NCBI GenBank assembly: GCA_021787595.1
Contig: JAJYLQ010000006.1
Location: forward strand, 74,408 to 138,407
Length of the DNA: 64,000 nt
Source: Chloroflexota bacterium
GTDB lineage: Bacteria > Chloroflexota > Anaerolineae > Anaerolineales > Villigracilaceae
Direction: 5' to 3'
The notes below the pieces were generated by a model. It worked only from the letters and a program-made list of their open reading frames with translations, made no database searches and was not told the DNA's origin. The position numbers were made by a program, and so were the translations under genes. This document shows positions 4,728-48,294 of this stretch, one piece after another. Positions within the stretch are counted from its first letter, which is position 1, and each line of letters begins with the position of its first letter.

Positions 4728-6274
4728 CGCAATCTGACTCGCAGGCTAATTTCACCAGAAGGGACCTCCTCAAACTTATATCCCTTGTTCCTGTGGTCTC
4801 GATGCTGCAGCCGCTGGGGAGGATCCTGGGAAATGTCAATGCCGGGCAGGCGCCCAATGTCATTGTGCTCGTCTTCGATGCGTGGTCCGCGCATGATGTG
4901 CAGCTCTTCGGATATCCCCGGCAAACCATGCCAAACCTCGCAAAGTTCGCCGAGGACGCGATCGTTTATCATAGTCACTACTCAGCCGGCACGTTCACCG
5001 TTCCGGGGACAGCTTCTTTGTTGACCGGTTTGTATCCATGGTCGCATCGGGCGCTTCAATTGGGCGGAGGCATCATCAAGCCGCACATAAACCACGAGGT
5101 TTTCACAGCCGTTCAGGGCGCACTTTCCACGATTGGATACACCCAAAATACATACGCAGACGTGATCATGGGGCAGGCCGAGAGATATATAAAAGAGCAC
5201 CTCCCAACCGGAAGTTTCGGCCTGGAGAATGAATTCATCTACAATCTGCCAATATTCGAAAACGATACGCTGATTTCGTACGCCGGCCTGGAAGACAACA
5301 TCTTCAATCTCGGAGGCAAGGGAACCACAGGCTCTCTTTTCGTGGCCCCCTTTACCAATTATTGGCTGTCATATCAGAAGCTGCGCTTGAACGGCAAATA
5401 CGCAAAGGAATATCCGGGTGGGCTGCCTGATTCGGACACCAATGGCGTATATACGCTCGAAGGCATTGTGGATGGTGTCATCAAGACGTTGGGTGAGATT
5501 AGGGAACCCACCTTTGCGTATCTGCATTTTTTGCCTCCTCACGAACCTTATTGTCCCACATCGGAATATATAAAAGCCTTCGATGATGATTTCCATCCGG
5601 TGATAAAACCGGTTCATCCATTATCTTATAAGTCCGTGGATCCCGGCGGGCTGGCAAAACGCCGGAGGCTTTATGATCAATATCTTGCGAGTTGGGATCA
5701 GGCAGCCGGAAAGCTGTTTGATTTCCTGAAGACCTCGGGCCTGCGGGATAATAGTTATATTTTTATTACCGCTGACCACGGCGAAATATTCGAGCGGGGC
5801 GAGCTGGGGCATTTCACGCCTTTGATATATGACCCGCTGATTCATATCCCGCTGCTGGTTTCCCAGCCGGGACAAAAGGCGAGACAGGATGTGTTTGCTT
5901 CCACAAGCAATGTGGACATTCTCCCGACCATAGCCCGCCTTGCGAACATAGCGCCGCCAGGCTGGGTGGAGGGGAATCTTCTTCCGAGGCTGGGAGGCGC
6001 TGAAAATCCGGATCGGAGCGTTTTCGTGATCGATGCGAAGGAGGATTCCTCGTTCGGTCCATTGACCCGGTTTACCGCCTCGATTTCCAGGGATGGATTT
6101 AGGCTGGTTGATTATCAATACCGGGAATATACGGGCTTCGAATTGTATAACCTTGTCGAAGATCCGGAAGAGCTAAAGAATCTTTATGGCGCCAATCCCG
6201 CCATTCTCAGGTCTTTGAAAGACGAGTTATTGCAGAAGCTCGCGGATGTCAACCGTCCTTATCAAAAGGGTTGA
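4724..6274 (+). CDS. Sulfatase / alkaline-phosphatase superfamily enzyme with Tat-like signal
   Basis: 516 residues. Residues 11-35 look like a Tat signal (TRRDLLKL plus a hydrophobic stretch), so the enzyme acts outside the membrane. The core has the superfamily metal ligands: D52 in VLVFDAW, and ITADHGE near residue 348 with a following H. At the place of the sulfatase signature C-x-P-S-R the sequence is TVPGTASLLTG (T92-G102), so there is no cysteine or serine to become formylglycine. A threonine nucleophile is used by phosphoethanolamine and phosphoglycerol transferases of the same superfamily, so a phosphotransferase or phosphodiesterase acting on surface glycans is as likely as a sulfatase. 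Translationally coupled to the preceding membrane protein. Confidence 0.8.
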   Translation: MTQSDSQANFTRRDLLKLISLVPVVSMLQPLGRILGNVNAGQAPNVIVLVFDAWSAHDVQLFGYPRQTMPNLAKFAEDAIVYHSHYSAGTFTVPGTASLLTGLYPWSHRALQLGGGIIKPHINHEVFTAVQGALSTIGYTQNTYADVIMGQAERYIKEHLPTGSFGLENEFIYNLPIFENDTLISYAGLEDNIFNLGGKGTTGSLFVAPFTNYWLSYQKLRLNGKYAKEYPGGLPDSDTNGVYTLEGIVDGVIKTLGEIREPTFAYLHFLPPHEPYCPTSEYIKAFDDDFHPVIKPVHPLSYKSVDPGGLAKRRRLYDQYLASWDQAAGKLFDFLKTSGLRDNSYIFITADHGEIFERGELGHFTPLIYDPLIHIPLLVSQPGQKARQDVFASTSNVDILPTIARLANIAPPGWVEGNLLPRLGGAENPDRSVFVIDAKEDSSFGPLTRFTASISRDGFRLVDYQYREYTGFELYNLVEDPEELKNLYGANPAILRSLKDELLQKLADVNRPYQKG

Positions 6275-6287
6275 TTCCTGGCAATCG

Positions 6288-8024
6288 TTAATCGTTCGCG
6301 TTGGCGGGTTTTACATCCTTGAGATTCAATTGCAGCGTTGTCCGCCCGTTGTATTCGTTCGACTCGAACGAATAAATTACATCCACGCGCGGCGGCAGGT
6401 TTGCCTGCAAGTGTCCCATCCTGAAACCAATTGCATCCAGCATTGTGCCGTGATCATCGTCGAGCGCGAGTTTGAGATGTTTGCCGTCTGCGCCAACGGT
6501 GCGCGATGACTTCACTTTGACGCCGCGCGAGACAAAGACCGCATCCGGATTTCCATAACCGGTGGGTTCGAAATACGCGAGGTGTTTCAATAATTCAAGG
6601 TTCAACTGCGGAAGCAGGACTTCCATATCTGCCGCGAGGGTTGGGCGCAAATCCCTGCCGCTCAATTGCGCCTCGGCAATGGACTTCAAGCGGGCGACCA
6701 GTTCCGGCAGCTTGTCGTTGCGGACGGTGAATCCCGCCGCAGCCGCGTGCCCGCCATGCCGGACGAGCAAGTCGGCGCATTGATCGAGCGCGTCGGTGAT
6801 GTGAAATTCGGGGATGGATCGGCACGAGCCGCGCGTTTCCTCCGGGCCTTTCGCCGCGACCACTGAAGGGCGATAATATGTTTCCATCAGGCGCGATGCC
6901 GCCAGCCCAACCACGCCCGAATTGAATCCTTCGTCCACGGCGAACAACAAGAATGGATTGCCCCCGTCGGCGAGGGCCAGCGATTCGGCTTTCTCCTGCG
7001 TGACGCGCGTCAAAGCCTGGCGCTGGCGGTTCTGCACATCGAGTTGCTGCGCGAGCTGGCCGGCGCGCATGAAATCCGTTGCGGTCAATAATTCCAGGGA
7101 TGCCAGCGCCGATTCGAGCCGCCCCGCCGCGTTGAGCCGCGGTCCAAGCACAAATCCGATTTGCCCGGCAGTCGTTTTGCCGATCGCCATGTCCGCGACA
7201 TTGGCTAACGAAAAAAGCCCCTGGCGTTTTGTCTCGCGGATTTGTTTGAGTCCGCGGCGCACAAGGACGCGATTTTCTCCGACCAGCGGAGCGAGGTCGG
7301 CAACCGTGCCGAGGGCGACGAGATCCAATAAATCGGCAAGTGCAAGGGCGTGGACCATGGACGGTGGACGGTCTTCGGTCAACGGACCGCGGTCCATGAA
7401 AAGCGCTTCTGCAATTTTGTATGCAATGCCAACGCCCGCTAAATTTTTATCCGGGTAAATATCGCCGCGCTGCTTTGGATTGATCACGGCAAAGGCGGGC
7501 GGCAGGTCGCCGTCAGCGGGGTGGTGGTGGTCGCTGATAACAAGATCCAGCCCAATGTCCCGCGCGTGAAGCGCTTCATCCGGAGAGCGGATTCCGCAAT
7601 CCACGCTGATGGCCAGTTTGACGCCGTCCGCTTTCAGATGATCCAGCGCGTCGTTGTTGAGCCCGTAGCCTTCGTCGAAGCGGTTTGGAATATAGCCGCG
7701 AACATCGGCATCCAGCATCCTGAACGTTTGAAGGAGCAAAGCGGTGGCGGTGACGCCATCCACATCATAATCGCCGTAGATCGCGATCGGTTCGTGATGA
7801 TCCAGCGCATAACGAATCCGGTCCACCGCCGCGCTCATTCCTGTTAATTGAAACGGGTCGGTGTTGAAATTTGGTTCGGCCCTGAGAAAGGCGCGAGCTT
7901 CCGCGTCGGTGGCGTAACCGCGATTGAAAAGCAGTTGCCGGAGGATGGGAGGAAACTTCGAGAGATTTTCATCCGCCTGCGGCGTAATGGATTGCGAGAT
8001 GGGCCAGCGTTTCGAGAGTGTCAT
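6288..8024 (-). CDS. recJ: Single-stranded-DNA-specific exonuclease RecJ
   Basis: 578 residues, the usual length of bacterial RecJ. The DHH motifs are clear: IYGDYDVDGVTA (motif I), VDCGI, SDHHHP (motif III), and the DHHA1 half with GGHAAAAGF near residue 460. RecJ degrades single-stranded DNA 5' to 3' in mismatch, base-excision and RecF-type recombination repair. A longer frame reaches 8207, but the ATG at 8024 starts the conserved N-terminus (MTLSKRW) and lies 18 bases after a TATACT box, so the upstream part is noncoding. Converges with the sulfatase gene and diverges from the gene at 8123. Confidence 0.95.
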   Translation of the reverse strand: MTLSKRWPISQSITPQADENLSKFPPILRQLLFNRGYATDAEARAFLRAEPNFNTDPFQLTGMSAAVDRIRYALDHHEPIAIYGDYDVDGVTATALLLQTFRMLDADVRGYIPNRFDEGYGLNNDALDHLKADGVKLAISVDCGIRSPDEALHARDIGLDLVISDHHHPADGDLPPAFAVINPKQRGDIYPDKNLAGVGIAYKIAEALFMDRGPLTEDRPPSMVHALALADLLDLVALGTVADLAPLVGENRVLVRRGLKQIRETKRQGLFSLANVADMAIGKTTAGQIGFVLGPRLNAAGRLESALASLELLTATDFMRAGQLAQQLDVQNRQRQALTRVTQEKAESLALADGGNPFLLFAVDEGFNSGVVGLAASRLMETYYRPSVVAAKGPEETRGSCRSIPEFHITDALDQCADLLVRHGGHAAAAGFTVRNDKLPELVARLKSIAEAQLSGRDLRPTLAADMEVLLPQLNLELLKHLAYFEPTGYGNPDAVFVSRGVKVKSSRTVGADGKHLKLALDDDHGTMLDAIGFRMGHLQANLPPRVDVIYSFESNEYNGRTTLQLNLKDVKPANAND

Positions 8025-8042
8025 AGTATGAATGGTGGGTTG

Positions 8043-8048
8043 AGTATA
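8043..8048 (-). promoter_or_regulatory. -10 box (TATACT) of recJ
   Basis: TATACT on the minus strand ends 18 bases before the recJ ATG at 8024. No convincing -35 hexamer is seen. Confidence 0.4.
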
Positions 8049-8097
8049 CTTTAATTTCAGCGCAGGGACACACGCATTCCCGACTCGAGCAACGTTG

Positions 8098-8103
8098 TAT
8101 AAT
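8098..8103 (+). promoter_or_regulatory. -10 box (TATAAT) for the gene at 8123
   Basis: TGTATAAT directly precedes the gene. Transcription would begin near 8110, after the first possible ATG (8105), which supports the ATG at 8123 with GGAGAG as the true start. Confidence 0.5.
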
Positions 8104-8122
8104 AATGGACGGAGAGAGTGCC

Positions 8123-8638
8123 ATGTATACGCTTGCTCCAGACGAAAAAGCGACCGCCGTGATGGTCTATTCACGCGCCAAGTTGATTCATGGCGATCTG
8201 GTGACAAAGAATAACCTGCGCGTCAACATCTGGCTGCGAACGCAAGGCGTACCCAACTACATCCATTTGCTGAAAACGCAGGTGCTGTTTTTGGATGGCG
8301 CTTCGCCCAAATCGCTGGCCTACAATGAATATTTCTTTCCGACCGAGCGGATCATCGCGTTCCATCTTGCGCCGCCCAACTCCGAGCCGCTGGATTACGA
8401 CCCCGATGAAGCCAACCGCGCGATGATGGAGGTCAACATGTTCCTGGGCGCGTTCTTGTTGAAGGGCAAGCTCCGTGTTTCCACGCACACAGACTTCGCT
8501 ACCAGCATCGAAGTGTCACACATGAACTGGCTCTCGGTCTACGATGCGGAGATCAATAATTTGCTCGTGCCGCAAATGCCAGCCATTCGTGTGTCCATGC
8601 TGCTGGTTGACCCGCGGCAGGTCAGCTTTGGCTTGTAG
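8123..8638 (+). CDS. Conserved hypothetical cytosolic protein
   Basis: 171 residues, starting MYTLAPDEKATAVMVYSR. It has no signal peptide or membrane segment. The composition suggests a mixed alpha/beta fold with two related halves, each having a hydrophobic strand followed by a short conserved segment (YIHLLKTQVLFLDGA and the later NLLVPQMPAIRVS). I do not recognise a family with certainty. The start is fixed by the promoter and by GGAGAG six bases before the ATG. Divergent from recJ. Confidence 0.75.
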   Translation: MYTLAPDEKATAVMVYSRAKLIHGDLVTKNNLRVNIWLRTQGVPNYIHLLKTQVLFLDGASPKSLAYNEYFFPTERIIAFHLAPPNSEPLDYDPDEANRAMMEVNMFLGAFLLKGKLRVSTHTDFATSIEVSHMNWLSVYDAEINNLLVPQMPAIRVSMLLVDPRQVSFGL

Positions 8639-8677
8639 CTGCAATTCCCCTAAACTTCCTGATATTGAGGTTTGAAA

Positions 8678-9325
8678 ATGAACTTTACAAAAAGAGGCAT
8701 TGACCTTTTACTGGTGCTGATTTTGCTTGCGGCGAGCGGCGTAGTCGTTTATTTTGGAGTGAGCAATGGGAGCGGACTTGAAACGCCGCTTCCCGCTTCG
8801 ACTTCGACGCCGACATCCACAATCGTTTCGACCGCCACGATTACTTTTACACCGACTGAAACGCTCACGCCGACCCTGATTCCGGCCTCGGCGGCCATTC
8901 CAACTCAGACACCAACTCTCACCCCGATTCCTACACTGACACTGACTCCCTCGCCCACGCTGACTGCTTCGCGAACACCCGCGCCGACTGCCGGCGCCAC
9001 ATCCACAGGCGACCCGGTATCGCCGCTCAGCCAGGAAATCAAGGATGGAATCGGACGCGGAAACCAGATCGTCAAGGCCATCGAGGCGTACCACGCGGCG
9101 GCAGGAAAGTTTCCTTCGAAGCTCACAGACCTGATGCCCAATTACCTGACGGCGATTCCGCTTACTTCCACCGGGCAATCCTATTTCTATCGCTTGTTCG
9201 ATCCGGCGAGTCCGATGGCGTCCGAGGTCTATTGGCTGGAATTCAGGGCAGTGGATCAGGATCATGTAGTCTGCCTATACATGCGCCGGATAGATTATTG
9301 GGACTGCGACTATGACAGTCCGTGA
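8678..9325 (+). CDS. Membrane-anchored protein with Thr/Pro linker and extracytoplasmic domain
   Basis: 215 residues. A single N-terminal helix (about residues 8-28) anchors the protein. Residues about 35-110 are a low-complexity spacer of Thr, Pro and Ser (repeats such as TPTLTPIPTLTLTP), the kind of cell-wall spacer common in Anaerolineae. The C-terminal 100 residues form a compact domain that starts QEIKDGIGRGNQIVKAIEAY and resembles the pilin-like processing of small secreted domains (a helix followed by GKFPSKLTDLMPNYL). The ATG at 8678 follows GAGG; a TTG two codons earlier is less likely. Function unknown. Confidence 0.75.
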   Translation: MNFTKRGIDLLLVLILLAASGVVVYFGVSNGSGLETPLPASTSTPTSTIVSTATITFTPTETLTPTLIPASAAIPTQTPTLTPIPTLTLTPSPTLTASRTPAPTAGATSTGDPVSPLSQEIKDGIGRGNQIVKAIEAYHAAAGKFPSKLTDLMPNYLTAIPLTSTGQSYFYRLFDPASPMASEVYWLEFRAVDQDHVVCLYMRRIDYWDCDYDSP

Positions 9326-9360
9326 TCTGATTCTGGTGTCATAACAGCAAGGAGGCCAAC

Positions 9361-9906
9361 ATGGATACAAAATACAAAAAGCTCATTGTCCTGTTGTGGT
9401 TCGCGCTGGCGCTCACGCCATTTCGTTCGGTCGCTGCGGACACAGGGCCCAAACCGACGATGGATTTTACCTTCGTGCAGGGAATTCCCGGCCAGCCGGT
9501 GAGCATCCTTTCCGGCACGCTGTTCGAATGCGAACAGTCTGATTGTTCGGATGCGAAGCCGCTGGTTACGGCCGGCCCCCAACATTTCAGTTGTGATGCG
9601 GCCGCGTGCAGCGCGTTGGCTTACGGTTTCAGCCCCTACCACCGGCTGGAGATCCAGTTCTCGGACGGGAAGACGCGGCAGAGCAACATTTTCCAAACAG
9701 CTGGATTCAACTCGATCTATAAAGTCACGATCCGCCCGGACGATCTGCTGGTGGAGTCCCAATTCAATCCGGGCAATCTCCTGCCAACAAATTATCTTCC
9801 AGCCAACGTCGTCCTTCTGCTTTGTGCCTGCTTGTTGTGCCTGGTTGTGGTCGTCGTTATTGTTATCGTGGTCGTGGTTTCGAGGCGCAGATCCAAAAAT
9901 CAGTGA
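9361..9906 (+). CDS. Type I membrane protein of unknown function
   Basis: 181 residues: a cleavable-looking signal peptide (residues 1-26, ending FRSVAAD), an extracytoplasmic domain of about 115 residues with four cysteines in two close pairs (ECEQSDC and CDAAAC), and a strongly hydrophobic helix near the C-terminus (VVVVVIVIVVVV) ended by SRRRSKNQ. The cysteine pairs suggest disulfides. The ATG follows AAGGAGG. The stop overlaps the next gene. Confidence 0.75.
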   Translation: MDTKYKKLIVLLWFALALTPFRSVAADTGPKPTMDFTFVQGIPGQPVSILSGTLFECEQSDCSDAKPLVTAGPQHFSCDAAACSALAYGFSPYHRLEIQFSDGKTRQSNIFQTAGFNSIYKVTIRPDDLLVESQFNPGNLLPTNYLPANVVLLLCACLLCLVVVVVIVIVVVVSRRRSKNQ

Positions 9907-10229
9907 CCGGCAGCCTGCCAACGACCATCATCGTGGAGGGATTGGTCGTCGTTGCCTACGCGTTATGGAAGCGAAAGCCTGTTGGAAGGATCCTGCTTGC
10001 AAGCATCCTTGTCAATATCCTGACACAATCCATACTTTGGGTTGTGTTGAACTTGTTTTTCGCCCGCTATTTGAGCGCGCTGCTGATCTCCGAGTTCTTT
10101 ATCTGGTTGATCGAAAGCGCATTCCTGCGATTCTTTCCTGGCACTCAGCTTGGATGGAAAGAATCCATTCTGTTGAGCCTCGTCATGAATCTTTCCAGTT
10201 TTGGCTTGGGTTGGTTTTTACCGGTGTAA
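9903..10229 (+). CDS. Small polytopic membrane protein
   Basis: 108 residues with a GTG start that overlaps the preceding stop (GTGA). It begins VTGSLPTTIIVEGLVVV and has three to four hydrophobic helices with few charges (KRK near residue 25). It is probably translated with the preceding protein and may partner it in the membrane. The longer frame from 9822 would run inside the preceding gene and is not preferred. No family recognised. Confidence 0.65.
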   Translation: MTGSLPTTIIVEGLVVVAYALWKRKPVGRILLASILVNILTQSILWVVLNLFFARYLSALLISEFFIWLIESAFLRFFPGTQLGWKESILLSLVMNLSSFGLGWFLPV

Positions 10230-10248
10230 GCACGGTTCGAATACCATT

Positions 10249-10779
10249 TCAGATAGTTCGCGCCATTAGCAATTCATCGTACATCCTGCTATTCGCATAA
10301 ATTGCCTGTGGCTCTGTGCCGTAGGTTGTGAATCCACAGCGGGTATAACATCGGATCGCGGAGGTGTTGGCAGTATTGACTCCCAGCTTGACGATTCGTA
10401 TCTTATGCAGTCGCGCCCACACGATGCAAGCCGCGATCATTTCATCGGCAATTCGCAAGCCGCGCCATTCTGATTTGACGTAGACTCCCACAATGGTTCC
10501 ACTGTGTTTTGTCTTTGGCGAATCGCCTCGATAAATTCCGCATGTTCCAACCAAGCTGTCATTGCAGTCAGCAAAATAAATCATACGCTCATCCTCAAGC
10601 GAATGCAGTCTCTCTGTCCAGTAAGTCATGGGCTGCTTATCGTATATGGCGAAATCCGCGCTGAAGGCTTCGGGGTGATTGTGCAGCGCTTCCAAACGTA
10701 GTTCACGATACGCTTGCGCATCGCTTTCCTGGCCTTGACGGATGATGATTCCGCGCGGAGTTGTTATGATTTTGTTCAT
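10249..10779 (-). CDS. GNAT acetyltransferase, in frame with a broken PIN-domain gene
   Basis: 176 residues from the ATG at 10779. The GNAT fold is clear: IIIRQGQESDAQAYRELR at the start, VGVYVKSEWRGLRIADEM as the acetyl-CoA loop (a variant of Q/RxxGxG/A), and NTSAIRCYTRCGF as the last conserved motif. The family moves acetyl groups from acetyl-CoA to amines. The frame continues upstream without a stop into the C-terminal half of a VapC toxin (to 10926), so the two are physically fused. The ATG at 10779 has no Shine-Dalgarno sequence, so translation may depend on the upstream PIN frame. Whether it is still expressed is uncertain. Confidence 0.75.
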   Translation of the reverse strand: MNKIITTPRGIIIRQGQESDAQAYRELRLEALHNHPEAFSADFAIYDKQPMTYWTERLHSLEDERMIYFADCNDSLVGTCGIYRGDSPKTKHSGTIVGVYVKSEWRGLRIADEMIAACIVWARLHKIRIVKLGVNTANTSAIRCYTRCGFTTYGTEPQAIYANSRMYDELLMARTI

Positions 10780-11123
10780 TGGATAATGTTTGATATTTCT
10801 TGTAATGAGTTCAGCGTCCGCCGCAAAAGCCGTTGCGGCGATCAACGCATCAGCGAGCTCGATATGTTTTGTGGCGCGATATGTATTTAAATATTCCCCG
10901 GCTTTGCGCGCAATTTCCTCATCCACATCCAGAATTACAAATAGGTTGAATAGCTTTTCGGTGCGTCCTCATTCGCCCACACGCATCCCCGCCAGAATTT
11001 CCGTGAGGCTGATGACTGACATCGCCAATGTTTCACCTTCGACGAGCGTTGGGTAAAGTATTCCAGCTTCTCTTCATGATCATGAAAATGGTCAATGGCA
11101 ATGTCAGTGTCGATCAGTCTCAT
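10777..11123 (-). pseudogene. vapC: VapC-type PIN-domain toxin, frameshifted and interrupted
   Basis: The start MRLIDTDIAIDHFHDHEEKL is a normal VapC N-terminus with the first catalytic aspartates. Near 11050 the frame shifts: the continuation TLVEGETLAMSVISLTEIL is in another frame. That frame then meets a TGA near 10968 before resuming with RTEKLFNLFVILDVDEEI and ending ADALIAATAFAADAELITRN, with the remaining acidic residues. So there are two lesions, and the 3' end has also lost its stop and reads into a GNAT gene. The ATGA overlap with the upstream antitoxin is intact. Confidence 0.8.
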
Positions 11124-11383
11124 TTCGACTTTCTCAATTTTTCAACCCGATAACCTTTTCTGATCTCGCGCACATATTTGACGCTCTTGGCTGGAACATC
11201 AGTCCGGTCTGACCACATACCAAAACTTTCCATCAGCGCGGCGCGTACTTTTTCAACAGGCGTGATGACTAAACGTCCCTGCTTGTCAATCGTTATCGCA
11301 ACTTTTTGTCCAACGGGCAATGCTTTGCGATACTCGTCAGGGATGTTCAGCGTGTATTTGGAAGTAATTCGAGTGACTACCAT
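11120..11383 (-). CDS. AbrB/SpoVT-type antitoxin of the broken VapBC pair
   Basis: 87 residues. The N-terminal swapped-hairpin domain is visible as VTRITSKYTLNIPDEYRKAL followed by VGQKVAITIDKQGRLVITP, and the charged C-terminus would bind the toxin. It would repress its own operon. GGAGG lies five bases before the ATG at 11383; a GTG one codon earlier is too close. It overlaps vapC by ATGA. The toxin is broken, so the antitoxin is now an orphan. Confidence 0.85.
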   Translation of the reverse strand: MVVTRITSKYTLNIPDEYRKALPVGQKVAITIDKQGRLVITPVEKVRAALMESFGMWSDRTDVPAKSVKYVREIRKGYRVEKLRKSK

Positions 11384-11399
11384 CACAGCCTCCAGAGCT

Positions 11400-11405: not shown

Positions 11406-11432
11406 CAACATCACTGAGTTGCAAATCTCGCA

Positions 11433-11483
11433 TATAATCAGCCCGATGTTTGAATTTCAAATCACTTCCAAGAACAATCGCAC
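11433..11483 (+). pseudogene. Truncated duplicate of the tgt promoter and first codons
   Basis: This 51-base stretch matches 12104-12154 at 45 positions and includes the TATAAT box, the ATG (11446) and the codons for MFEFQITSKNNRT, almost identical to the Tgt start MFEFQITAKNNRA. The similarity stops abruptly and MazF-type toxin sequence follows. It is a vestige of a tgt 5' end left on the far side of the toxin-antitoxin pair. Confidence 0.85.
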
Positions 11484-11492
11484 CCAATATTG

Positions 11493-11825
11493 TTACGATC
11501 CCAGGGTGTGCTTGAGCGCTGTGTCCACTTCCTCCATTGGGATTTTTCCAATCACGCGGTCTATCGCAATCTCTGAAATGGTGGCGAGATTATCAGTCAT
11601 CACTACTGAGTCGGTCAGCAAGCCCGACGTCTTTCCAGCAGGCGAATCCAATTTAATCAATACGCGGCTTGTAATCATCGCGACGACGATTTGCGGCAAG
11701 CCGCTTTCAAGGTTGTCCGTTTGAACGATCAAGGCGGGACGGGGTTTGGCGGTTCTCAAATCTGAATGCGGGAATAGCACCAAAACCACATCGCCGCGTT
11801 TAAGTCCGCGTGTTGTAGTTGTCAT
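11493..11825 (-). CDS. MazF/PemK-type endoribonuclease toxin
   Basis: 110 residues. The PemK fold signature is present: RGLKRGDVVLVLFPHSD at the start, then AKPRPALIVQTD, VVAMITSR and the last helix AIDRVIGKIP. These toxins cleave mRNA at short sequence motifs. The ATG at 11825 is preferred to a GTG two codons upstream. The 5' end overlaps the antitoxin gene by 26 bases, as is usual for such pairs. The gene appears intact, unlike the other two toxin genes in the window. Confidence 0.9.
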   Translation of the reverse strand: MTTTTRGLKRGDVVLVLFPHSDLRTAKPRPALIVQTDNLESGLPQIVVAMITSRVLIKLDSPAGKTSGLLTDSVVMTDNLATISEIAIDRVIGKIPMEEVDTALKHTLGS

Positions 11826-12042
11826 AGACACTCATTTCAGGACTATCCCACTCTTCTGTAAAGGCAGCGAGTTGCGCGCGTAAATCGCCTGCTTGCTCTT
11901 CGCTAATGCCGCGTGTGCGCAAGTCAATTCCTTCGACGCCAAGAAAGGTAACAATCACGGGGGTTTCATCAGGAATGTCAGAAGGATTGTTGTTCAGAAC
12001 AATCTTTCCCTTGCGATAGACTCCTTGTAAAGTGGTTAACAT
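11800..12042 (-). CDS. Antitoxin of the MazF-type pair
   Basis: 80 residues. The N-terminal part, MLTTLQGVYRKGKIVLNN, resembles the short beta-hairpin proteins of the AF2212/DUF104-like antitoxin group, and the acidic C-terminal half (EEQAGDLRAQ, EEWDSPEM) would wrap the toxin. AAGGAG precedes the ATG by six bases, and a TATAAT box lies at 12066-12071. The pair is divergent from tgt and shares a short control region with it. Confidence 0.8.
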   Translation of the reverse strand: MLTTLQGVYRKGKIVLNNNPSDIPDETPVIVTFLGVEGIDLRTRGISEEQAGDLRAQLAAFTEEWDSPEMSVYDNYNTRT

Positions 12043-12065
12043 ATTTTGCTCCTTGCTCTCGTAAA

Positions 12066-12071
12066 ATTATA
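12066..12071 (-). promoter_or_regulatory. -10 box (TATAAT) of the MazF-type operon
   Basis: TATAAT on the minus strand, 23 bases before the antitoxin ATG. It faces the tgt promoter about 35 bases away. Confidence 0.5.
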
Positions 12072-12103
12072 ACTCATCTTGAATACAACAAAGTGATGAC
12101 GTG

Positions 12104-12109
12104 TATAAT
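12104..12109 (+). promoter_or_regulatory. -10 box (TATAAT) of tgt, apparently leaderless
   Basis: TGTATAAT ends seven bases before the tgt ATG at 12117, so transcription should start at or next to the A of the start codon. TTGAAT at 12079 is a possible weak -35 element. There is no room for a ribosome-binding site. Confidence 0.6.
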
Positions 12110-12116
12110 CAGCCCG

Positions 12117-13241
12117 ATGTTTGAATTCCAAATCACGGCTAAAAACAATCGCGCTCGCACGGGCATCTTCACCACGCCGCACGGCGATCTGCTCACGCCG
12201 GTCTTTGCGCCGGTCGGCACGCAAGCCACGGTCAAGACGCTCACGCCCGAGCACCTCAAAGACATCAACGCCACGCTGGTGCTGGGCAACACCTACCATC
12301 TCTATCTGCGTCCCGGCGATGAACTTGTCCGCGACATGGGCGGCTTGCACAACTTCATGGGATGGCATCGTCCCCTGCTGACCGATTCGGGCGGCTTCCA
12401 AGTTTTTTCTTTGGCGCAGACGCGCAAAATTGACGATGATGGCGTGACCTTCAAGAGTCACATTGACGGGACGATGCATCGCTTCACGCCCGAAAAGTCC
12501 ATCGCCATTCAGGAGAATCTCGGCGCGGATATTATCATGGCATTCGATGAATGTTCTGATCCGAATAATCATAAGTACACAAAACTTGCGATGGATCGGA
12601 CGCATCGTTGGGCGGAACGTTGTCTCAAAGCGAAGACGCGCGACGATCAAGCATTATTCGGCATCATTCAAGGCGGCGTTCAAGCGGACCTGCGAGCGGA
12701 GTCCGCTAAATTTATTGCCTCTCTCGATACCCCCGGCATTGCCATCGGCGGACTCTCCGTCGGCGAGACCAAAGACGAAATGCACGCCATGCTCGATGTG
12801 ATGTATCCGCTTTTGCCTGAAAACAAGCCGCGTTATCTGATGGGCGTCGGTACGCCAGAAGATTTGATCAACGGCGTTTTGCGCGGCATTGACATCTTCG
12901 ATTGCGTCTTGCCGACTCGTTTGGCGCGTCATCATTCTGCGTTTGTGCAAGAAGGACGACTCAACCTAATGAATGCTTCCTTCGCCCGCAATGAACATCC
13001 AATTGACGAAACCTGTGATTGTTACACTTGTCAAACGTTCACACGCGGATACATCCGTCATCTTATTGTGGCAAAGGAGTTGTTAGCGGGAACACTTATC
13101 TCTATTCACAACCTGCGGGCGTTGATAAGGTTGATGGAATCCATTCGGAGTTACATTGCTGATGGTTCGTTTGAATCGCGCGCTCCCGAATTATTGAAGC
13201 AATGGCATGGTAATGCGGAAAGAAAGTTGGTTCATGGATAA
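12117..13241 (+). CDS. tgt: tRNA-guanine transglycosylase
   Basis: 374 residues, normal length. It exchanges guanine-34 of tRNAs with GUN anticodons for the queuine precursor preQ1. Visible motifs: LLTDSGGFQVFSLA (base-binding), GGLSVGE, the catalytic aspartate in FDCVLPTRLA, and the zinc site CDCYTCQTF with the later histidine. A longer frame from 12093 exists, but MFEFQITAKNN at 12117 is the family start and the promoter position supports it. The last codons (VHG, stop) lie within the heptamer repeat that flanks the next gene, so the repeat array reaches into the coding end. Confidence 0.97.
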   Translation: MFEFQITAKNNRARTGIFTTPHGDLLTPVFAPVGTQATVKTLTPEHLKDINATLVLGNTYHLYLRPGDELVRDMGGLHNFMGWHRPLLTDSGGFQVFSLAQTRKIDDDGVTFKSHIDGTMHRFTPEKSIAIQENLGADIIMAFDECSDPNNHKYTKLAMDRTHRWAERCLKAKTRDDQALFGIIQGGVQADLRAESAKFIASLDTPGIAIGGLSVGETKDEMHAMLDVMYPLLPENKPRYLMGVGTPEDLINGVLRGIDIFDCVLPTRLARHHSAFVQEGRLNLMNASFARNEHPIDETCDCYTCQTFTRGYIRHLIVAKELLAGTLISIHNLRALIRLMESIRSYIADGSFESRAPELLKQWHGNAERKLVHG

Positions 13242-13279
13242 TGGATAATGGATCATGGATCATGGGCAATGGATCATGG
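13233..13279 (+). repeat. Tandem 7-nt repeats, left border of four-helix-bundle cassette
   Basis: Six consecutive units of the form ATGGATA or ATGGATC (one ATGGGCA), beginning in the last codons of tgt and ending 8 bases before the cassette ATG. The same units occur in inverted orientation at 13742-13792. Confidence 0.85.
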
Positions 13280-13287
13280 AGGTTTGC

Positions 13288-13749
13288 ATGACGGTAATGA
13301 ATTTGGATAAATTGGAAGTATGGATGAGGGCTAAGGATTTTGCAGTAGCGATTTATAAAGAAGCTGTTCCTCATTTGCCCGCCAGCGAAAAATACAATCT
13401 CATTGATCAACTGAAACGCGCGGCATCCAGTATCCCAGCAAATATTGCTGAGGGTCATGGGCGTTACCATTTTCTTGATAACGTTCGTTTTTGTTACATC
13501 GCGCGCGGTTCTTTGACCGAAGTGCAAAGTCATTTGTCCTTGGCTAAAGAATTAGGCTATTTGCCAGACGATGTTTTTCAACGGCTGACTCTCCGCGCTG
13601 AGTCCATCGGGAAACAGCTCAATAACTATATTGCCTATCTCAAACGCTCAAAACAAGGCGAAAAGGAATTTCCAGCCGGATATACTGTTCGCGAAGAGCC
13701 ATTGACATACATTCTTGATGATCCCGATCAAGACTCCAACAACCATTAA
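13288..13749 (+). CDS. Four-helix-bundle protein (23S rRNA intervening-sequence family)
   Basis: 153 residues. The family signature is clear: KLEVWMRAKDFAVAIYK at the start, then the hallmark SSIPANIAEGHGRY, then a helix with GSLTEVQSHL. The family is encoded within intervening sequences of some 23S rRNA genes and is related to the accessory Avd protein of diversity-generating retroelements; its biochemical role is unknown. GGAGG lies five bases before the ATG. The gene is enclosed by inverted 7-nt repeat arrays, and a second member at 35414-35839 has the same arrangement, so this looks like a small mobile or once-mobile cassette. Confidence 0.9.
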   Translation: MTVMNLDKLEVWMRAKDFAVAIYKEAVPHLPASEKYNLIDQLKRAASSIPANIAEGHGRYHFLDNVRFCYIARGSLTEVQSHLSLAKELGYLPDDVFQRLTLRAESIGKQLNNYIAYLKRSKQGEKEFPAGYTVREEPLTYILDDPDQDSNNH

Positions 13750-13792
13750 CCATGATCCATTAACCATCATCCATTAACCATCATCCATTAAC
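13742..13792 (-). repeat. Tandem 7-nt repeats, right border of four-helix-bundle cassette
   Basis: Read on the minus strand: units ATGGTTA, ATGGATG and ATGGATC alternating for six to seven repeats. They are the inverse of the left array. The array includes the end of the cassette gene and lies 57 bases before uppP. Confidence 0.85.
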
Positions 13793-25740: not shown

Positions 25741-26595
25741 ATGCAAAATTCAAATCCTTCATTGCTTGCAGTATTGGCACATCCCGATGACGAATCATTT
25801 GGTTTGGGCGGTACGCTGGCTCTTTATGCCAAACAAGGTTGCAACGTTTATCTGGTCTGCGCCACGCGCGGCGAAGTCGGCACGGTGGACCCGGAATTCA
25901 TGAACGGCTTTGATTCGATTGCCGAATTGCGCGAGTCCGAATTGCGATGCGCGGCGCAGCATCTCGGCCTCCAAGATGTTTTCTTCCTCGATTACCGCGA
26001 TTCGGGCATGCCCGGCACGGAGGAAAATAAACATCCCGACGCGCAGATCAATCATCCGGTTGAAGAAGTTGCGGGACGCGTTGTGAAATACATCCGTGAA
26101 TTGAAGCCGGATATTGTTCTGACCTTCGATCCGATTGGCGGATACCGGCATCCGGATCACATCCATATCCATCAGGCGACGGTGCTGGCTTTCGAAAAAG
26201 CGGACGACGCTTCTTTCCACCCCGAAATCGGATCGCCGGTCAAACCGCGTGCGCTTTACTTCCAGGTTTTTCCCCACCAATTTCTGCGGATCATGACGCG
26301 CATCATGCCGCTCTTTGGCGCGGACCCGCGCAAGTTTGGACGCAACAAGGATATTGATCTCAAGGCTTTGGTCGAGTTCGATTTCCCGGTGCATGTGAAA
26401 GTCAATATCGGACCGGTATCACAGGTCAAGGCCGAAGCGGGGGCATGTCACGCCTCCCAGGGCGGAATCCAGATGCAGCGCGGCGTCATGGGATTCGTCA
26501 CGCGGCTGATGGGCGAACACGAAGATTACATGCGCGCCTACCCGCCGGTCGACGGAAATTCTCGCGTGGCGAAAGATTTGTTCGATGGAATCTAA
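25741..26595 (+). CDS. PIG-L family deacetylase (zinc-dependent)
   Basis: 284 residues. The zinc motif AHPDDE is at residues about 12-17, with the third ligand in HPDHIHIH; GGTLALYA and CATRGEVG complete the N-terminal Rossmann-like core. Members remove N-acetyl groups from GlcNAc conjugates, for example in mycothiol or bacillithiol synthesis. The length and the HP(D)DE core suit an MshB/BshB-like enzyme, but no partner gene is beside it. GGAGAG precedes the ATG at 25741. The stop lies directly at the border of a 171-base repeat. Confidence 0.9.
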   Translation: MQNSNPSLLAVLAHPDDESFGLGGTLALYAKQGCNVYLVCATRGEVGTVDPEFMNGFDSIAELRESELRCAAQHLGLQDVFFLDYRDSGMPGTEENKHPDAQINHPVEEVAGRVVKYIRELKPDIVLTFDPIGGYRHPDHIHIHQATVLAFEKADDASFHPEIGSPVKPRALYFQVFPHQFLRIMTRIMPLFGADPRKFGRNKDIDLKALVEFDFPVHVKVNIGPVSQVKAEAGACHASQGGIQMQRGVMGFVTRLMGEHEDYMRAYPPVDGNSRVAKDLFDGI

Positions 26596-26596
26596 C

Positions 26597-26767
26597 ATTA
26601 CAGCGCAAAGTTAGAGCATTGAGGGTTCTGCTCATGGCTTTTCTACCGTTTTCGCCCTCATCCCCACCCCTTCCCCCGAATGGGGAAGGGAGTCTCCTCT
26701 CCCTTTGGGAGAGGGAAAGGGTGAGGGAGAATTGGCAGGGAACGATTGCTCGACCTTGCGCTGTAAT
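26597..26767. repeat. 171-base element with terminal inverted repeats (copy 1)
   Basis: Ends ATTACAGCGCAAAGT and, inverted, ATTACAGCGCAAGGT. The interior has two GC-rich hairpins: CCCTTCCCC/GGGGAAGGG and CTCTCCC/GGGAGAG. A copy of the same length and almost the same sequence is at 48106-48276. It begins two bases after the PIG-L stop. Confidence 0.9.
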
Positions 26768-26775
26768 ACTAAACC

Positions 26776-30537: not shown

Positions 30538-30674
30538 AACTGATGTTACGCAATCCAATCATTTTTTCATCTTATACACCCTCACCCCGGCCCTCTCCCG
30601 CGGGGAGAGGGGACTCCCTTCCCCTTTCGGGGGAAGGGTTGGGGGATGAGGGAGAAACTTGTGTAACATCAGTT
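30538..30674. repeat. 137-base element with 16-base terminal inverted repeats
   Basis: Ends AACTGATGTTACGCAA and TTGTGTAACATCAGTT are inverted with one mismatch. The interior holds CCCTCTCCC/GGGGAGAGG and CCCTTCCCC/GGGGGAAGGG hairpins, that is, the same GC-rich core as the 171-base elements but in the opposite orientation and with different ends. Confidence 0.85.
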
Positions 30675-48012: not shown

Positions 48013-48105
48013 GTTAAATAACCCAATACCCATGCGTTCGTATAAGCCATTTGTCAAATGCCTTAACGCAAAGACGCGGGGGCGCGAAAAAATCCCCGGG
48101 TTAAC

Positions 48106-48276
48106 ATTACAGCGCAAAGTTAGAGTTTTGAGGGTTCTGCTCATGGCTTTCCTACCGTTTTCGCCCTCATCCCCAACCCTTCCCCCGAATGGGGAAGGGA
48201 GTCTCCTCTCCCTTCGGGAGAGGGAAAGGGTGAGGGAGAATTGGCAGGGAACAATTGCTCAACCTTGCGCTGTAAT
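48106..48276. repeat. 171-base element with terminal inverted repeats (copy 2)
   Basis: Same length and order of hairpins as 26597-26767, with about ten base changes. Ends ATTACAGCGCAAAGT and GCGCTGTAAT. Confidence 0.9.
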
Positions 48277-48294
48277 ATTAAACAATGCGGTGAA

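Follow-up and report, generated by a model that had tools for sequence, protein, structure and literature searches.

The tgt gene for queuine tRNA-ribosyltransferase in the stretch of DNA analysed here (the window; 64,000 nucleotides, G000:C1:74408-138407 of the 4.08-Mb, 63-contig Villigracilaceae genome G000) is preceded by a second, truncated tgt start, and a mazEF-type toxin–antitoxin (TA) pair lies exactly between the two. The best explanation, to which we give a probability of roughly two in three, is that mazEF was acquired as a short piece of DNA together with a tgt promoter, joined in register with the resident gene on the right and out of register on the left, where the start of the resident tgt would have been left behind. 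The features of the locus are as follows.

11423-11448, plus strand: native promoter context, a 26-mer identical in G004 and G002
11433-11486, plus strand: left-over native tgt start, with -10 box, ATG (11446) and some 13 codons before the cut near coding base 40, from the repeat, the profile and the comparison with congeners
11493-11831, minus strand: mazF-like toxin gene (PF02452), with a 27-nt in-frame gap near 11665-11672 relative to homologues
11800-12042, minus strand: antitoxin gene in the mazE position, without Pfam family
12043-12116, no strand: spacer between the divergent antitoxin gene and tgt, with a 31-nt stretch (28 identical) common to the mazE-tgt spacer of G146
12104-12154, plus strand: second copy, with the active -10 box and start of tgt, from the repeat and the profile
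12117-13241, plus strand: tgt, queuine tRNA-ribosyltransferase (PF01702, E 1.8e-153)

Two tgt starts and the pair between them

Positions 11433-11483 and 12104-12154 form a direct repeat with 45 of 51 bases identical (90% in a 49-base core; E 4.8e-11 in a self-BLAST of the window), and the sequence-only reading, which had described this repeat with a MazF-type pair exactly between its copies, was borne out in its coordinates. The right copy comprises the -10 box and the start of tgt, with the ATG at 12117. The left copy has its ATG at 11446 and is tgt-like up to about coding base 40 (codon 13/14), beyond which the homology is to the 3' side of mazF genes elsewhere; mazF and the antitoxin gene are transcribed away from tgt. 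Three of the six differences between the copies are synonymous in frame (TTT/TTC, ACT/ACG, AAG/AAA), two fall inside a single Ser/Ala codon and one at the junction codon. No further copy was found within the window at up to 18 mismatches in 51, and a sequence-only profile of 66 related tgt starts (65 positions; much shorter relics are invisible to it) detected both copies and nothing else in the window at E <=1. Similar fragments scattered through the genome had been named as grounds for rejecting an acquired module; genome-wide, a 27-mer derived from the repeat (at most 3 mismatches) matched the two copies only, and the profile gave four matches at E <=0.1, namely both copies and two weak ones below the matches listed.

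The tgt locus of relatives looks as the same reading had predicted: the congeners G001, G002, G004 and G005 have a single start there and no close mazF. This count refers to the four genomes with a tgt start; the contig end of G001 falls inside tgt, and G003 showed no tgt. The best mazF match in the congeners, in G002, has 33% identity (G001 and G003 are only 77-78% complete). The 26-mer AAATCTCGCATATAATCAGCCCGATG covers ten bases upstream of the left copy and the copy's own first bases as far as the ATG, and G004 and G002 have it without a difference. Collinearity with G004 extends over 5.8 kb of the left flank at 77% identity (window 5003-10780, G004 4940-10763), followed by 0.64 kb that is unmatched in G004, which has 90 other bases there, and that holds a second TA remnant. 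The region upstream of the active start differs from the native one. Because of the identical promoter 26-mer and the collinear flank, the left copy is, judged by its sequence surroundings, the native tgt start, now dead. Its native promoter context rules out that it is foreign, and the proposal that the extra copy came from a diverged tgt falls with it; the description of a useless tgt end left over was right in effect, except that the leftover is the recipient's own.

The toxin open reading frame (ORF; 11493-11831) belongs to PF02452 (E 1.7e-14, 54.4 bits against a cut-off of 23.1). The antitoxin ORF (11800-12042) has no Pfam match, and its homologues adjoin mazF homologues elsewhere. As in MazEF/PemIK type II TA systems, the antitoxin gene lies upstream of and overlaps a toxin gene of PF02452; unlike in them, the antitoxin has no Pfam family and MazF lacks nine residues after its MIT stretch. 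Of 54 homologues aligned, 51 span this place, and all nine residues are present in 49, part of them in two, and they are fully absent in none. At the DNA level the gap amounts to 27 nt relative to G146 and G077, so that the MazF/PemK core of the window protein is interrupted by an internal 9-residue loss. Decay of the pair is probable, given the loss from MazF of nine residues that are otherwise conserved, and toxin activity may have gone with them. Plasmid and phage records contained no close MazF (two plasmid matches at 34% and no phage match). A search of NCBIfam gave no match.

Probable arrival of the pair with a donor promoter

Among 152 genomes of the family, close MazF homologues (at least 72% identity over at least 99 residues) occur in seven genomes other than that of the window. 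Among them is G146, from another genus, whose mazF, mazE and tgt are ordered as in the window; its homology to the window is unbroken from 11485 into tgt. We collected 59 loci with mazF homologues, and tgt is present at one of them, that of G146; a few loci occur twice in the set, each reaches at most 1.5-4 kb to either side, many stop at contig ends, and the set includes a genome-contig scan and one locus (G229) from a sample of 400 genomes of the order. The spacer upstream of the active start agrees with that of G146 at 28 of 31 bases. Of the 17 outer bases of this spacer, 15 are the same in G146, compared with six in G077, two in G162 and two in G125, whose mazE genes lie away from tgt; over the next 12 bases, on the mazE side, each of the four has 10-11 matches. 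In the mazEF tree the window stands beside G146 and a fragment from G125 (support 90/92, moderate and not starred), and the mazEF genes of the window and G146 are 81% identical, the whole mazEF-tgt stretch 77%. Because the region upstream of the active start is common to G146 and the native context stands on the left, the most likely course is that the pair came in joined to the promoter and head of a donor tgt, with the native start cut in codon 13/14.

The sequence of events may be pictured as follows. In the donor piece, mazEF would already have stood divergent in front of a tgt promoter and perhaps the head of the gene. The right joint would have been made in register with the resident tgt, giving an intact gene with the incoming promoter and start, and the left joint out of register, as an illegitimate joint at codon 13/14 within the native tgt. 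Promoter, ATG and about 13 codons of the native gene would thus have been stranded to the left of the insert as a dead relic. The whole could have occurred in one step, by uptake of free DNA with one homologous and one illegitimate joint, that is, by homology-facilitated illegitimate recombination (HFIR). What is observed is two starts against one in the congeners, a native context on the left and a G146-like context on the right; the homology of the insert to other mazEF loci begins right at the left junction, where tgt codon 13/14 runs into the 3' flank of mazF, an illegitimate joint at one end.

No tyrosine (PF00589) or serine (PF00239) recombinase is encoded on the tgt contigs of G000, G170, G011, G146 and G021, and tyrosine recombinases are found elsewhere in all five of these genomes. 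ComEC family proteins are present in six of six genomes, and also in 10 of 14 control genomes; DNA uptake is possible as far as gene content goes.

HFIR, with one joint homologous and the other illegitimate, is described from laboratory transformation and conjugation in PMC3240628 and PMC2884548, the latter also mentioning small variable segments flanked by direct repeats. The window case would be alike in having one homologous and one illegitimate joint and in needing no mobile-element enzyme, and is unlike in that it is deduced from a scar, the homologous crossover not having been located. According to PMC5635113, recombination hotspots occur at flanking core genes without mobile elements, with variable cargo beside a core gene, no integrase and a proposed exchange through the core gene, as here; unlike those hotspots, the window keeps a truncated gene start as a scar. 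The same comparison extends to long target duplication: restriction-modification genes insert with long, variable target duplications according to PMC3031569, and an insertion of this kind (Nobusato et al., Gene 2000) is cited in PMC2654758. Here, too, a selfish gene pair lies between two direct copies of its target, which is single in relatives without the pair; unlike the known cases, which concern restriction-modification genes, the cargo is a TA pair, the repeat consists of the promoter and start of a core gene, and native upstream context is found on one copy only. Within the collection searched, the literature on TA pairs with repeats or target duplications held no recognised match to the window case, and that on tgt as an integration site nothing relevant.

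Weighing the origin of the active start

Several observations weigh against a donor origin of the right copy. Measured against G004, the two copies score almost alike (46 and 47 matches in 51), as they do against G021 (47 and 46), and both have AAT at codon 11, where G004, G002, G001 and G021 have AAC; the equal distances and the common AAT fit a duplication of the native start or a very close donor equally. The active copy matches G146 at 31 of 51 bases in an ungapped comparison, its 51 bases are closer to no donor-like genome than to G004, and the nine bases (GATGACGTG) that precede the active -10 box have no counterpart in G146 or in the native promoter. Ranking the nearest sequences over the 51 bases was dropped as an arbiter of the origin of the copies, as it gave no decision.

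Approximately unbiased (AU) tests on codons 1-75 of tgt gave p values of 0.84 (quick tree) and 0.30 (careful tree) for a genus clade, 0.14 for a placement with G146 and 0.31 for one with G021; for codons 76-374 the corresponding values were 0.71, 0.21 and 0.15, and none of the placements was rejected. In the careful tree of codons 1-75 the window groups with G012 (support 89/87, not starred), which is of the same genus as G146 and has no mazEF at its tgt. In 45-codon sliding windows G004 ranks 16th at codons 16-60 and 1st-6th in the other 14 of the first 15 (to codon 255); in the last eight its rank ranges from 1st to 52nd, with no clean boundary. The gene is intact and in register on the right, neither the trees nor the sliding windows revealed a mosaic boundary, and tgt segment trees were abandoned for want of resolution as a means to place the border between donor and recipient. 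The earlier proposal of recombination with the DNA of a relative stands in part: an acquired insert and a tgt-linked mazEF in another genus (G146) speak for it, and a transfer of tgt coding DNA does not follow from the trees of codons 1-75, which reject neither a native nor a foreign placement.

A serious, if unlikely, rival is that the insertion of mazEF duplicated some 50 bp of its native target, a long duplication, so that both starts are native, the left one decaying and the right one drifting synonymously. It accommodates the equal distances to G004 and the common codon 11, long and variable duplications of this kind are stated for restriction-modification genes, and the differences can be divided accordingly, those of the right copy being readable as synonymous and the Ser/Ala and junction-codon changes falling on the left copy. 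It leaves unexplained the outer spacer, where G146 agrees at 15 of 17 bases and mazE genes elsewhere at 2-6 of 17, and the difference between the copies (6 of 51 bases) exceeds that between the left copy and G021 of another genus (4 of 51).

Relics and cargo at tgt across the family

The tgt-start profile matched 147 of the 152 family genomes under stricter filters, with matches listed down to about E 0.008, so that weak relics may escape. Apart from that of the window, the matches listed include two truncated second starts that precede an intact tgt, in G170 and G011, both of other genera. The G170 relic (L165 1993-3050) is cut at about coding base 47 and lies about 1 kb from tgt, with a divergent short-chain dehydrogenase gene between; its promoter context is matched at tgt of G129, G141, G154 and G173 of its own genus, and of G036 and G005 of others. 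The G011 relic (L206 1492-6348) is cut at about base 42 and lies 3.7 kb from tgt, and the gene before it resembles, by eye, the gene before tgt in G002 and G005. Its cargo includes one gene of thioesterase type and one for a DNA methylase; the ORF next to the latter lacks a Pfam match, and methylase and ORF may form a restriction-modification pair. By eye, all three relics are cut at about coding bases 40-47, within a stretch that is rich in GC and partly palindromic; the clustering is a lead, three cases being few.

Among the matches listed there was no longer truncated tgt start, and G023 has a complete second tgt. Other second starts were dropped: that of G087 is an assembly overlap (the match stops where its contig does, and the genome's tgt begins at the very end of a different one); those of G091, G027 and G089 share one common sequence that is not beside tgt; those of G113, G144, G137 (two), G081, G070 and G149 lie on contigs other than that of the genome's tgt; G082 yielded no tgt; and 14-base matches in G034 and G127 were taken as chance. 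As a control, the starts of 658 ORFs of at least 120 aa in 0.82 Mb of the window's own genome were compared by BLAST with the 0.2-12 kb upstream, and no truncated copy except that of tgt was found; one other pair consisted of starts of intact ORFs. This control would miss a relic as worn as that of G011.

Homologues of the mazEF and hicBA types lie beside tgt in two of 78 fetched loci (G146 and G021) and in the window, other TA families being outside this search, and we do not claim tgt as a general hot spot for TA pairs. In G021, of a third genus, hicBA is divergent beside tgt (L006 2667-3085) and the spacer resembles that between mazE and tgt in G146, as though one TA pair had been exchanged for another while the promoter region stayed. 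A conserved N6/N4-type DNA methylase gene with a neighbouring ORF stands divergent within 600 bp of tgt in five of the 78 loci, which belong to three genera (L206 2686-4839 of G011, and the tgt loci of G068, G071, G084 and G074).

Known integrative elements carry replacement sequence at gene ends. The three relics might thus be read as traces of a site-specific integrative unit that targets tgt codons 13-16 and carries a replacement promoter and head, which we regard as distinctly improbable. The similar cuts with unrelated cargo would suit such a unit, as would the GC-rich stretch with its consensus palindrome CCCG-CA-CGGG (imperfect in the window). No integrase gene lies on the five tgt contigs, though integrases elsewhere could act in trans; the fetched loci of G146 and G021 show a TA pair at tgt but no relic; the cases are three only; and GC-rich microhomology could also focus illegitimate joints. 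That mazEF beside tgt is ancestral to the family, the left fragment being a later, unrelated duplication of the tgt start, is hardly credible: the mazEF genes of window and G146 are about as diverged as the whole mazEF-tgt stretch, which speaks for it, but a close mazF occurs in 7 of 151 other family genomes and beside tgt in G146 only, and the congeners' promoter context is on the left copy, not the right.

The surroundings of the locus hold further small units. Next to mazEF lie the following two features.

11120-11386, minus strand: small antitoxin-like ORF of the neighbouring TA remnant (MazE_antitoxin, sub-threshold, E 0.011), in a stretch unmatched in G004
10780-11123, minus strand: PIN-type toxin remnant, apparently frameshifted, its C-terminal part in frame with a GNAT ORF (10249-10926)

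The PIN match covers residues 2-45 of the GNAT ORF, and the piece upstream of it (10935-11123) is itself without one; from its sequence, this remnant looks decayed too. Directly after tgt stands an ORF of the 23S-rRNA-intervening-sequence type (PF05635, 13255-13749) between inverted repeats (13228-13281 and 13734-13787); the unit is unmatched in G004, occurs in G002 and has the opposite orientation in G007, in the manner of a small mobile element. A 182-bp repeat (26593-26774 and 48102-48283, 95.6% identity) has a shorter inverted relative at 30579-30657.

Wide movement is ascribed to TA pairs, but the way in which a bare pair lacking mobility genes gets into a chromosome can rarely be seen; here both starts of the target gene, the former and the current one, survive, and because they do, the native side and the left joint can be read. 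The parallel cases in two other genera suggest that a truncated gene start next to an intact core gene can serve as a marker of such arrivals. A bolder idea, to which we attach a rather low likelihood, is that in this family exchange takes place preferentially within the first 13-16 codons of tgt, where unrelated small cargo repeatedly enters at about bases 40-47 and brings a replacement promoter and head. If so, the gene would never be lost, each arrival would leave a 'head relic', and the family would have a gene-restoring route of insertion that needs no integrase of its own.
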